64,000 nucleotides of DNA from positions 62,001 to 126,000 of the forward strand of contig CALHGZ010000008.1 of the NCBI GenBank assembly GCA_938031175.1. The letters are read 5' to 3'. Made by a program: the position numbers and the translations under genes. The notes under the pieces were generated by a model, which was not told where the DNA came from, made no database searches, and saw nothing but the letters and a program-made list of their open reading frames with translations. Source of the stretch: Candidatus Kapaibacterium sp. Lineage in GTDB: Bacteria; Bacteroidota; Ignavibacteria; Kapaibacteriales; UBA2268. Of this stretch, positions 49,912 to 59,959 are shown in pieces; within the stretch, counting starts at the first letter, position 1; each line of letters opens with the position of its first letter.

Positions 49912-52900
49912 ATGAAACAAATTCTAACCTCATTAGTAATTATTGCTCTAAATTTACATTCGAGTTTCTCTAAATCTTTGGGATCAAATCTTAAAATCAA
50001 CGAAATAATGCCTTCTAATGCAAAATCATTTTATGATGATTCATACAAAACTCCGGATTGGATCGAGCTTTATAATATCGGGGATACAGCTATCAACCTC
50101 AAAGGTTTTAGAATTAGCGATAAATTTGATTTCGAAAAAGCATGGATTTTCCCTGATACAGTTATCCGAGGCAAATCCTTCATCTCCGTCTATGCCAGCG
50201 GCTGGGATACGGTCGTCTCGAATAAATTCAATATCGAAAGTAATGGATTAGGCGTTTTTCAACATACCTGGTTCGATAGTTTCAGCTTTTTGTATAAAGA
50301 AGTAAAAGGCAACTTTGTTATGAGTGTAACTATAAATTCGACAAGATACATCCAAGGAAGAAGCGTCCACGGGGGTTTACTTGTCCGTGAGTCTCTCGAT
50401 TCCTTTGCAAGATTTGTCGGATATTATGTTATGAACCAAAATGATAATCCTTTTTATTGGCTTACTTACCGAGATTCTACTAATCCTTATCCTAAATATA
50501 AATTCCCTGGTTTTTCAAATCATAATAAATCTTGTTTTCTAAAAATATGGAGAGATGGAGAATGGATCTATACTTATGCTACAGACGAAAAGGGATGGAT
50601 TATCGAAGAAAACCAAATATGGTTCCCCGTTAATACGCCCGTTTATGTAGGCTTAGCAGTCGCAAGTAATGATGAAAAAAATCTAACAAAATTCTCTTTT
50701 TCAGACTTTATGCTTTTAGTTGATGAGGAAAAATTCTCTTGGGAACAACTAAAATTTATCGACATCAACACTACAACCCCAGGGAAAATATACCGATCGA
50801 GAGAAATGCACACAAATTTCAAACTTGACAGCAAAGGAGAATCTATCTATCTATGGGATGCCAATGGGAATTTAATCGATTCATTAAGATTTGGTGAAAT
50901 TTTAACTGATGTCTCTTATGGGCGTTATCCTGATGGAAGCAATACATTTTACTATTTCAAACAAGGCACAATAGATAAACCCAACGTGAATGCCACTCCA
51001 TACATAGGAATTACTAAAGCTCCTAAAATTAAAGTTGATTACGATATCTTTAATCAGAAAGCATACGCAACAATACAAGCAAATACAAATGAACAAATAT
51101 TTTATACTTTAGACGGTAGCGAGCCTACAATTAGTTCAATGTTATATCAAAATCAACCTTTGGTTTTCACCACAACTACAGTCCTTAAAGCAAAAACATT
51201 CAGAGAGAATTACTTATCGGGGAAAACCTCAGTAATAACTATTTTTGTTAATGATAGTAGTACAATTAATGTTGTTTCACTATCCGGAAAAAATGAGGAT
51301 TTTAGAAATAAAGATTCTAGTGGTTTACTTGATAGAGTATTTTCAGATATGAGGATTGTATCTTACTTTGAATTTTTCGATAAAAATTTTAACCAATTAT
51401 ATAATTCAGCCGTAGAACTAAAATTATTAGGACATGGAGCTGCAAGAAATCCATTACAACCTTCTTTTAAAATAAAAGCAAAAAATTCAATTGGCGACAA
51501 TGAGCTGAATTTTCCTTTTTTTGGTGAAAAATCGCAAAAAACATATCAATCCATCATGCTTAGAAATTCAAGTGGTGATTGGATCTCGGCTTATATAAGG
51601 GATGCATATTGTCATCAATTAGCCAAAATGCTCCATTCGCTCGATATCTCTGAATATATACCTATCAATGTTTACATTAACGGACAATATTTCGGGCTTT
51701 ATAATTTACGAGAAATTACTAATGATGATTATTTAAGTCATAAATATAAATTAAACAAAGATTCTATCAATATTTTTAAGTTATACAAAGAAATAAATAA
51801 TGGTTCTGTTTATTCCTATTATCATTTTATAGATGAATTGCACAATTATGATATAAACTCAATTGCTGCAAAGGAATTAGTAAAAGAAAATCTGGATTTG
51901 GACAATTTGACTGACTATTTAATTCTTGAATTCTACGTTTCTAACTATGATTGGCTAAATTGGAATATCAAACTTTGGCAATCCGAATCCTATGATGGTC
52001 GTTGGAGATTTTTACCACACGATTTGGATTGGTCTCTTAATTACAATTCATTAGCTTCACCGGATTACCCGTCAATTAAGCGATTTTTCTCATCTGATTT
52101 CTATGAAAAATATGCATTTACTGAACTCATTAAAAAAATCATTCAAATTGATGAATTCAAAAATAAATTTATAAATCGCAGTGCAGATATACTCAATTTC
52201 ATTTTCATCCCTGAAAAATTAACTAACCTGCTAGATTCACTTGTAAATTCATACATTAAAGAAGTGTCACGTCAAAAAGCATTGTATCCCGAATCATTAC
52301 AAAATTTTGAAACTTCCATCGAAGATATCAAAGATTTTCTTAAAAAAAGGGCATATTACTATCGAAATGAAATTGTAGAAATATTTGAATTAAGTGGCTT
52401 GTCAAATTTGAAAATTACATCTAATTTGAAAAAACCAATTAAAATTCGAATTAACTCAATCGAAGTTCAAGACACAGCCTTATCAGGTATTTACTTTAAC
52501 GACGTCCCAATTGAAATCGAATTACTTGAACATCCCAATATTCCATTCATTGGATGGTTTTCCGACAGTCTCATTCAATCAAAAAAAATTACACTAGTAC
52601 TTAAAGACTCGCTTGAACTAAAAGCAATATTTGACTTCAAAGAAAGCCCACAAATTGTTATTAATGAAATTATGTACAAAGCCTCGAAAGAATTTGATTC
52701 TGAAGATTGGATTGAGCTTTTTAATCCTAATGATGACGATGTTGATCTAAGTGGCTGGCTATTAAAAGATGATAATGATAAACATATATTCGAAATTCCC
52801 AATGGTACAATAATAAAAGCAAAAGATTATCTCGTGATAGTTGAACGAATTAAAAAATTCTCTAAAATTCATCCCGATGTAAGTAATTACATTGGTGAAT

Positions 52901-53397
52901 TTGATTTTGGATTCGGATTAGAAGATATGGTTAGAATTTATGATGTCTTTGGTATATTAATTGATTCAGTTAAATACTCATCATCACCACCGTGGGACCC
53001 TAAAGCTAATGAAACCGGTTATTCACTTGAACTTATAAATCCTTATTTAGATAATACACAACCTCAAAACTGGCGTGCTTCCTATGTTTTAAACGGGACA
53101 CCTGGTAGAATTAACTCTAACTATTCAAGTATCGAAGTAACTATGTCTTTTGAGGAAAGCATCAATATTTATCCTAATCCAGCTACTACAATACTTTACA
53201 TTAATGGAAACTGTATTTCAAAACTTAATTATGTAATTACAAATTCATTGGGTAAAAAGATTTTATTCGGTACAATCAATGATAGTAAACAAAATAAAAT
53301 TTCACTCAATGGATTACCAAATGGTTTATATTTCATTTCTCTATTTGAGGAAAACAAAATTATCTACAAAGATTCATTCGTCAAAATCTCAGATTAA
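49912..53397 (+). CDS. Large T9SS-secreted protein with CotH kinase-like and two lamin-tail domains, one split by an insertion
   Basis: The 1161-residue product begins with a signal peptide (about 2-20). The first LTD domain (WIELYNIGDTAINLKGFRIS) is interrupted at about residues 105-295 by a concanavalin-like domain (FVMSVTI, GGLLVRESLDSFARF, resembling DUF1349) and resumes at HTNFKLDSKGESIYLW. A chitobiase-type Fn3 domain (about 355-430, YTLDGSEPTIS) and a CotH kinase-like domain (about 455-790, with RFLPHDLDWSLN) follow, then a second LTD (about 908-1065) and a T9SS tail (IYPNPATTILYI, NGLYFISLF). CotH proteins of spores and some bacteria are atypical protein kinases. The 3' end overlaps the convergent gene by 17 bases. 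Confidence 0.82.
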   Translation: MKQILTSLVIIALNLHSSFSKSLGSNLKINEIMPSNAKSFYDDSYKTPDWIELYNIGDTAINLKGFRISDKFDFEKAWIFPDTVIRGKSFISVYASGWDTVVSNKFNIESNGLGVFQHTWFDSFSFLYKEVKGNFVMSVTINSTRYIQGRSVHGGLLVRESLDSFARFVGYYVMNQNDNPFYWLTYRDSTNPYPKYKFPGFSNHNKSCFLKIWRDGEWIYTYATDEKGWIIEENQIWFPVNTPVYVGLAVASNDEKNLTKFSFSDFMLLVDEEKFSWEQLKFIDINTTTPGKIYRSREMHTNFKLDSKGESIYLWDANGNLIDSLRFGEILTDVSYGRYPDGSNTFYYFKQGTIDKPNVNATPYIGITKAPKIKVDYDIFNQKAYATIQANTNEQIFYTLDGSEPTISSMLYQNQPLVFTTTTVLKAKTFRENYLSGKTSVITIFVNDSSTINVVSLSGKNEDFRNKDSSGLLDRVFSDMRIVSYFEFFDKNFNQLYNSAVELKLLGHGAARNPLQPSFKIKAKNSIGDNELNFPFFGEKSQKTYQSIMLRNSSGDWISAYIRDAYCHQLAKMLHSLDISEYIPINVYINGQYFGLYNLREITNDDYLSHKYKLNKDSINIFKLYKEINNGSVYSYYHFIDELHNYDINSIAAKELVKENLDLDNLTDYLILEFYVSNYDWLNWNIKLWQSESYDGRWRFLPHDLDWSLNYNSLASPDYPSIKRFFSSDFYEKYAFTELIKKIIQIDEFKNKFINRSADILNFIFIPEKLTNLLDSLVNSYIKEVSRQKALYPESLQNFETSIEDIKDFLKKRAYYYRNEIVEIFELSGLSNLKITSNLKKPIKIRINSIEVQDTALSGIYFNDVPIEIELLEHPNIPFIGWFSDSLIQSKKITLVLKDSLELKAIFDFKESPQIVINEIMYKASKEFDSEDWIELFNPNDDDVDLSGWLLKDDNDKHIFEIPNGTIIKAKDYLVIVERIKKFSKIHPDVSNYIGEFDFGFGLEDMVRIYDVFGILIDSVKYSSSPPWDPKANETGYSLELINPYLDNTQPQNWRASYVLNGTPGRINSNYSSIEVTMSFEESINIYPNPATTILYINGNCISKLNYVITNSLGKKILFGTINDSKQNKISLNGLPNGLYFISLFEENKIIYKDSFVKISD

Positions 53398-58731: not shown

Positions 58732-59469
58732 TTATAGTATTCTACCAATAATTGTAGGTAACATCTGATTCCAGGTATTATAATCGTGTCCAAATTTTGG
58801 ACCCCATATCTCCAAATTATGTGGTATATTTTTAGCGGTGAGTATTTCTGATAAATGAATAGAATTCTCAGGATATTCATTTTCACCAGAACCTGACAAT
58901 AAATGTAAATGATGGCGGCTTTGCAAAAATGAAAGCCAGTAGTTATCAGTTAGATTCGGTAGATAATGTATCGGAGAATTAAAATAGCAATTTTCATCAA
59001 AGTAATCGCCGCTAAAGTGTTGAATATTAAAAGTACCACTCATTGCAATTGTACCAAGAAAAAGATCTGGCCTTTTTAAGTAGCTATTACAAGCATGGAA
59101 AGCTCCTATTGCACAACCACAGGTCAAAATTGGTACCGCCCCACCACAATCCTCATAAATCAAGCGTACCACCTCCTCAATAAGAAATCTATCATATTCA
59201 AAGTGCCTTTTTGAACGTTGTGCTGGCTCAATTTCGTAATTCAACCAGCTCTCAAAATTGACAGAGCTTACAGAGTAAACTTTTATTCTACCCGATCTGA
59301 TATACTGACCAATTGAATCAATTAGTCCCATTTCCTCATTTTCGTCTATCGAATCCCTTGTTGCTGGAAAGAGTAAAATTATTGTTCCAAAATGACCATA
59401 GATAGCTATGTCCATATCCTTCGAAAGATTGATACTTTTGAGTTTTACAACTTCCTTATTAATTGGCAT
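58732..59469 (-). CDS. Alpha/beta-hydrolase (putative esterase family) homologue lacking the catalytic serine
   Basis: The 245-residue protein has the putative-esterase fold layout (YGHFGTIILLFPATRD, LFLGTIAMSGTFNIQHF) with the late acid and histidine regions (LLSGSGENEYPENS and FGHDYNTWNQML). The nucleophile elbow, expected as GxSxG, reads GCAIG with alanine at residue 120. Without serine the usual hydrolysis is impossible, so it may bind a ligand or be a regulatory pseudoenzyme. There is no signal peptide. The next gene on the plus strand, prfB, converges with it 8 bases away. The function is unknown. Confidence 0.7.
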   Translation of the reverse strand: MPINKEVVKLKSINLSKDMDIAIYGHFGTIILLFPATRDSIDENEEMGLIDSIGQYIRSGRIKVYSVSSVNFESWLNYEIEPAQRSKRHFEYDRFLIEEVVRLIYEDCGGAVPILTCGCAIGAFHACNSYLKRPDLFLGTIAMSGTFNIQHFSGDYFDENCYFNSPIHYLPNLTDNYWLSFLQSRHHLHLLSGSGENEYPENSIHLSEILTAKNIPHNLEIWGPKFGHDYNTWNQMLPTIIGRIL

Positions 59470-59600
59470 CTAAACTCCTAAAGTAATATTATCGATTAAA
59501 TTATTTACAAAATTATGCTTTTTACAAAGACATTTAAAAATTTTATTAATCAATTTTAAAATTCAGTATAATTACTGATTTCTTCTTATGATTAGTTCTG

Positions 59601-59608
59601 TATTTTTG
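59601..59608 (+). promoter_or_regulatory. Candidate -7 promoter element for the 59645 gene
   Basis: TATTTTTG matches TAnnTTTG and is followed by CA, as at 62580. It is 37 bases before the start codon. No TTTG box is seen at the expected distance. Confidence 0.4.
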
Positions 59609-59644
59609 CATCAGTACATTATACAACATTTTAGCGAGGTAATT

Positions 59645-59959
59645 ATGAAAAAAATTCTTGAAAATATTCTCCAGACAATGCCAGATATTGAATTTATACA
59701 AATCGAAAATACCCCTAAAATTGAAGACATCCAAAAAGCTGAAACATTCATCAGAATCTATGTAGATAAACTTTTCGATCAAAACTTTTACGAAATCAAT
59801 AATTTTAATGGTCGGGAACTTAGACAAAGTGAAATAATTGAATTAAAAGAGCAGCTAACCTGTAGATTTCTTGTAGATTGGCTGAATAAGCATTTTAATG
59901 CCGATTTAGACCCAGTCATATGCTATTTATTAATGAATGGAACCCGTTATCATAACTAA
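59645..59959 (+). CDS. Small protein of unknown function
   Basis: The product is 104 residues from the ATG at 59645, which has a GAGG ribosome-binding site; an in-frame ATG at 59588 is less likely. It is mostly helical, contains no signal peptide or membrane segment, and carries acidic and polar residues. I recognise no domain. A terminator follows, and a candidate promoter is upstream, so it is likely transcribed alone. Confidence 0.6.
   Translation: MKKILENILQTMPDIEFIQIENTPKIEDIQKAETFIRIYVDKLFDQNFYEINNFNGRELRQSEIIELKEQLTCRFLVDWLNKHFNADLDPVICYLLMNGTRYHN

Follow-up and report, generated by a model that had tools for sequence, protein, structure and literature searches.

A candidate pseudo-esterase and repeated loss of the nucleophilic serine in a Bacteroidota protein family

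What becomes of a hydrolase when its nucleophilic serine is replaced and the rest of the gene looks intact? The question is raised by an esterase-like gene in a stretch of Candidatus Kapaibacterium DNA, 64,000 nucleotides long, which we refer to in its entirety as the window. Pseudoenzymes with the alpha/beta-hydrolase fold are already known (MPT51 and the NDRG proteins), and the window gene would join these non-catalytic alpha/beta hydrolases. The interest of the locus lies rather in how often its family loses the catalytic triad: in this small, single-domain bacterial family, by parsimony, the nucleophile position has switched between Ser and non-Ser 12 times or more.

A complete gene with alanine at the nucleophile position

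The gene (Table 1) is an open reading frame that, on translation of the minus strand, begins with ATG at 59469 and ends with TAA at 58732; the plus-strand reading of the same interval contains 15 stops. Residues 117–123 are encoded by TGT GGT TGT GCA ATA GGA GCT, and the nucleophile elbow at residues 118–122 reads GCAIG. The original prediction, which left the strand unstated, had reported the alanine at residue 120, the GCAIG motif and its TGT GCA ATA codons, and each of these is confirmed by translation and alignment. It had also described a complete gene of normal length in which the remaining catalytic-region sequence was kept, and we found a frame open throughout its 245 codons, with Glu198 and His228 retained at conserved columns.

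Table 1. Positions in the window of the gene, its catalytic-site codons and features around it
Feature	Position	Strand	Basis or remarks
Candidate pseudo-esterase gene, predicted alpha/beta-hydrolase fold	58732..59469	minus	245 aa; ORF listing, translation, AlphaFold2, PDB matches
Codon 120 (GCA, Ala), nucleophile elbow, Ser usual there	59110..59112	minus	Alignments, codons, model
Codon 198 (Glu), likely triad acid, kept	58876..58878	minus	Conservation; acid role inferred
Codon 228 (His), likely triad base, kept	58786..58788	minus	Conservation
Short ORF, divergent from the candidate pseudo-esterase gene	59588-59959	plus	123 aa; no Pfam family at E <= 0.001
Terminator-like site past the gene's 3' end	58672-58656	minus	1 site vs 0.4 expected
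Gene for a 1161-aa multidomain protein	49912-53397	plus	Domains named in the text

A protein search of the host's own 2.69 Mb genome returned a single match, the window protein itself, and thus no second, Ser-bearing copy. The same genome has one match to Pfam PF00756 on contig 6, covering model positions 111–210 and lying inside a 694-codon frame. The window protein is probably cytosolic, with no obvious signal sequence by eye. Cys119 was considered as a shifted nucleophile and rejected: Ser-bearing relatives also have Cys there (GCSFG), and it lies one residue ahead of the elbow position.

Fold and family assignment

The AlphaFold2 model of the window protein has a mean pLDDT of 97.1 and places residue 120 between a strand (114–119) and a helix (121–132), which is the nucleophile's place. 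All 1000 PDB chains compared with the model gave Z >= 8, with a top Z of 24.0. The best VIA match was 7xrt, the ferulic acid esterase BT_4077 (Z 24.0, rmsd 2.8 over 232 residues, 14% identity), and further structure matches included FphF (Z 22.8), FrmB (22.8) and human esterase D (22.1); the VIA matches are the top 50 entries of the list, absence from which is uninformative. The predicted structure is therefore an alpha/beta-hydrolase fold with a nucleophile elbow, of the CE1 / esterase-D type. Hydrolases of that type (BT_4077, 7xrt; FphF/FrmB, 6vh9 and 7l0a; S-formylglutathione hydrolases) share the fold over its whole length, with Z of about 21–24, and in three profile alignments the elbow of the window protein falls on the GxSxG-like motif of solved proteins, with the His also aligned (8z91, 6mot). 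Identity to these hydrolases is only 8–16%, however, and the window protein has Ala where they have Ser.

At the level of sequence families the assignment is looser. The window protein scores 16.2 bits against PF00756 (Esterase; E = 0.0091), under the curated cut-off of 22 bits, and its Ser-bearing relative L003 scores 24.3 bits, over the cut-off. Because 53 of the 65 aligned family members match PF00756 at E <= 0.01, the family is close to this Pfam family even though the window member falls below the cut-off. NCBIfam gave no match for the window protein at E <= 1, and a single-sequence search of the PDB gave nothing convincing (best E = 0.7). The protein family may be COG4947, which is a guess on our part. 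A literature search by title and the start of the abstract found no paper on this esterase-like family, and we found no characterised Ser-bearing members.

By these alignments the window protein has lost a required catalytic residue, Ser120 being replaced by Ala (GCAIG, codon GCA) where a GxSxG serine nucleophile is expected, and has kept the likely triad His and the residue that probably serves as triad acid, Glu198. Two known cases with the fold can be set beside it. NDRG proteins of animals have the alpha/beta-hydrolase fold without hydrolase activity, but they are eukaryotic and form another branch of the superfamily, whereas the window protein is bacterial, and their profile match to it (2xmq, 6zmm) is weak and non-significant (E = 0.08–0.2). 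MPT51 (FbpC1) of Mycobacterium tuberculosis, which belongs to the antigen 85 group, is a non-catalytic alpha/beta hydrolase whose structure (PDB 1r88) has the same fold as our model (Z 21.8, rmsd 2.6, 221 residues). It is a mycobacterial protein with 16% identity to the window protein, and the likeness of fold does not imply membership in this Bacteroidota family. The title of Wilson et al. states that non-catalytic proteins of this kind typically lack the Ser (PMC6119806).

Serine has been lost repeatedly

Homologs were found in 39 of 54 genomes of the host's taxonomic family (40 matches) and, in a phylum-wide sample of 395 genomes, in 167. We counted 174 proteins, leaving out L179, which has the same sequence as L067, and L062, which differs at one residue from L061 of the same genome. 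Within the taxonomic family the nucleophile position is Ser in 17 of 39 proteins, Ala in 7 and Gly in 15, so that Ser is absent in 22 of 39 (with L062 counted, Ser is 17 of 40 and Gly 16). In the phylum sample outside it, 116 of 135 proteins have Ser, and the 19 Ser-less ones have Asp (10), Gly (4), Ala (2), Glu (2) or Phe (1). The difference (22/39 vs 19/135 Ser-less) has P = 2.9e-7 by a Fisher test, which ignores relatedness; counted by genus, at least one Ser-less protein occurs in 11 of 20 genera of the taxonomic family vs 11 of 81 elsewhere. In a 96-homolog alignment that includes the window gene, the nucleophile column contains 68 Ser, 17 Gly, 8 Ala and 3 Asp.

The nearest relative of the window protein among the matches listed has 58–59% identity, and a scan of genome contigs with the single protein found no close relatives. 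An alignment-based scan of contigs found at least 592 stretches, at least 573 of them confirmed relatives; the best 80 comprise 74 with Ser, 3 with Ala and 3 with Gly, and were kept out of the counts, being partly on the same contigs as the family and phylum samples. No relatives were confirmed in viral contigs.

Masking the three triad columns, we built a quick tree of the 174 proteins, which requires at least 12 Ser/non-Ser changes, six within the taxonomic family and six outside it. Shuffling the labels 200 times on this tree gave a mean of 37 changes and a minimum of 32. Because 12 changes compare with a shuffled mean of 37, the Ser-less states are inherited within clades and are not an error-like scatter. 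A careful tree of 76 proteins, with the nucleophile column alone masked, requires at least 9 changes. Loss and regain are indistinguishable in these parsimony counts; if Ser was never regained, there would be about 16 losses on the 174-protein tree, in which several nodes are weak. The nearest contrasts lie within genera: L016 (Ala) vs L017 and L019 (Ser), and L026 (Ser) vs L023 and L029 (Gly). The check suggested at the outset, whether Ala is conserved as the mark of one clade, therefore has a negative answer, Ser having been lost several times in the taxonomic family, with Ser-bearing sisters interleaved.

These data bear on whether the alanine at codon 120 is an artefact of sequencing or assembly, in a genome of 18 contigs. 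Of the 17 Ser codons in the taxonomic family, 15 are TCN, which a single substitution turns into a GCN Ala codon, and the genomes searched include no other one from the genus; both points leave room for a base error. Against it, 7 Ala (the window protein included) and 16 Gly occur in the taxonomic family, across several assemblies and genera, and because these cluster on the tree far beyond chance, the loss of Ser is a real and common outcome. The original prediction had held that a Ser-bearing clade near this gene would point to an artefact. Such a clade does exist, but the artefact does not follow from it because 21 other counted homologs in the taxonomic family also lack Ser. We regard a base error as very improbable. 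Since a TCN codon becomes Ala by one substitution and Gly by two, the codons would fit a path from Ser to Ala to Gly.

Two other Ser-less groups were seen. In taxonomic family f32, a clade of eight proteins (L084, L091, L222, L230, L233, L234, L238, L242) has Asp at the nucleophile position and has lost the His in 7 of 8; it may be either another pseudo-form or a case of changed chemistry. Genus g22 (L060–L065) has a strongly diverged Ser-less form, which reads GCG and then D or E and lacks the Glu and the His as well.

Histidine and glutamate are constrained while serine is present

Among the 174 counted proteins, every one of the 133 with Ser has His at position 228, vs 14 of the 41 without Ser, from which we infer that constraint on the triad lasts only as long as Ser is present. 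Similarly, among the rows with a residue at position 113, which make up the window gene's subfamily, all 78 Ser-bearing proteins have Glu at position 198, vs 11 of 23 Ser-less ones. This pattern supports a Ser-Glu-His triad that would be working in Ser-bearing members and released once Ser is gone. On phylogenetically independent pairs, Ser loss and His loss go in the same direction in about 2 of 7 and in the opposite direction in none, with the rest undecided (median P = 0.5); the independent pairs are too few, so 133/133 vs 14/41 is a count of proteins rather than of independent events.

In the window protein Ser alone is gone, with Glu and His still there. The 7 Ala proteins in the taxonomic family are all in this state, as are 3 of its 16 Gly proteins, the other 13 Gly proteins (two clades, L062 included) having lost the His. 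Proteins in this state might still be enzymes, with His228 and Glu198 as a general-base dyad acting on a substrate for which a Ser nucleophile is unnecessary; the loss of Ser would then mark a change of chemistry. The retention of both residues in 7/7 Ala and 3/16 Gly proteins is what such a dyad would call for, and cofactor-free dioxygenases carry out nucleophile-independent chemistry on an alpha/beta-hydrolase fold. However, 27 of the 41 Ser-less proteins no longer have the His, so proteins without Ser do not in general require it; its retention together with Glu may just mean that Ser was lost recently; and the residue that replaces Ser differs among Ser-less lineages (Ala, Gly, Asp, Glu, Phe). 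A dyad enzyme is in our view unlikely.

Selection and maintenance

The comparison of synonymous and non-synonymous rates suggested at the outset met saturated dS for the window gene in all three pairings made, and constraint before and after the loss of Ser is inseparable. As an indirect indication of constraint, its protein keeps 50 of 65 columns that are conserved in Ser-bearing subfamily members outside the taxonomic family, compared with 51/65, 53/65 and 41/64 in its Ser-bearing sisters L002, L003 and L014. Elsewhere in the family omega could be estimated: it is 0.035 in the Ser-less pair L025–L028, and 0.084 and 0.058 in the Ala–Ser pairs L016–L017 and L016–L019. Five Ser–Ser pairs (L003 with L005, L006 and L008; L020–L022; L032–L036) have omega of 0.011–0.022, and two others have 0.028 and 0.078. 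L007–L010 gave omega 0.038 at a dS of 3.1, which is near saturation, and fits with runaway or saturated dS (L025–L057, L030–L058, L060–L064, L060–L063, L004–L003, L026–L029 and three pairs with L001) were unused. L016, the single Ala protein that has close Ser sisters, differs from them at 33 and 30 amino acids, and the sisters differ from one another at 14. Some Ser-less members are thus under purifying selection; judged by these rates, Ser-less genes elsewhere in the family appear strongly constrained (omega 0.035–0.084), perhaps less so than most Ser-bearing ones.

If the window gene had been inactivated recently, it would be beginning to decay and have no present function. Loss of Ser is common in the family; the search of 54 genomes of the taxonomic family left 15 without a match, so the gene may be dispensable; the window genome lacks an operon link to thiamine pyrophosphokinase (see below); and Ser-less omega tends to be higher than in most Ser–Ser pairs. 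On the other hand, the frame is full-length, the conserved columns are kept as in Ser-bearing sisters, and some other Ser-less clades are shared by several species and are under purifying selection, with g22 in a fixed gene order. Incipient decay seems to us distinctly unlikely.

We consider it likely that the window gene is a maintained pseudo-esterase, arising from one of many independent losses of Ser, whose use is now binding and not catalysis. Its ancestors would have been Ser-Glu-His hydrolases with a fold of the CE1 / S-formylglutathione-hydrolase type. In the window gene's lineage Ser gave way to Ala, at a stage with Glu and His remaining, and without Ser no acyl-enzyme would form by the usual route. 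The protein would then have been maintained, most likely because the ancestral ligand, or else a partner protein, binds in its pocket, in a sensor, carrier or regulatory role; the loss of activity, the kept binding and any such role are our proposals for this protein. The view of the gene as a maintained pseudoenzyme, put forward from its sequence, thus stands as the best reading, given its length, Glu198 and His228, the 50/65 columns and the many Ser-less relatives.

A parallel for such a history comes from fungal Dis3/RNase II pseudonucleases, which reportedly evolved repeatedly and kept RNA binding (PMC8097288). As in the present family, activity was lost repeatedly in one branch, and there a binding role was kept; Dis3/RNase II is an unrelated enzyme in an unrelated organism, however, and the function of those pseudonucleases is known. 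In the family studied here, Ser-bearing proteins stand beside Ser-less sisters, and some intermediates still have Glu and His. This natural series could be used to ask what an enzyme is for after catalysis is gone, and it also bears on whether a non-catalytic role came first. For annotation it carries a warning: proteins of this group that would be labelled 'esterase' often lack the nucleophile.

Gene neighborhood

Of the 96 loci L001–L096, 24 have a gene of the thiamine pyrophosphokinase cluster (identified by Pfam on two members) at most 1.2 kb upstream and in the same orientation. In the taxonomic family it is found upstream at 14 of 40 loci, 9 Ser-bearing and 5 Ser-less, and because these 5 Ser-less loci keep it, the operon outlives the loss of Ser. 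In the window genome the thiamine pyrophosphokinase gene is on contig 2, away from the window gene, with no esterase-like gene in the 3.27 kb around it. The association spans L003–L068, and puts an uncharacterised hydrolase beside a thiamine gene.

We raise tentatively, as a minority view, the idea that the Bacteroidota family has a second function, independent of Ser, that predates the losses, for example ligand sensing or partner binding tied to cofactor supply through the thiamine pyrophosphokinase operon. Catalysis would then be optional and have been shed repeatedly, Ser first and then His and the acid, and living relatives would display the stages of becoming a pseudoenzyme.

Gene order is also fixed around the g22 clade, where cluster 12 lies upstream and cluster 26 downstream at 6 of 6 loci from 5 genomes. 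In the GCSFG subfamily (L077 and others) a gene of one cluster follows the esterase gene at 12 loci; it is ATP-grasp-like by eye, and its L077 member has no Pfam match at E <= 0.001. A GCS2 glutamate-cysteine-ligase-like gene also occurs in 5 loci of this subfamily (Pfam match for L077).

Around the window gene, promoter-like sites number 7 vs 6.0 expected in shuffles, no excess to use, and one terminator-like site lies past its 3' end (Table 1). The neighbors are a release-factor gene (PCRF and RF-1 domains) that converges on the 3' end, a lactate/malate dehydrogenase gene and the short divergent ORF. Elsewhere the window encodes a 1161-aa protein that combines Lamin Tail, CotH kinase and Por secretion-tail domains.
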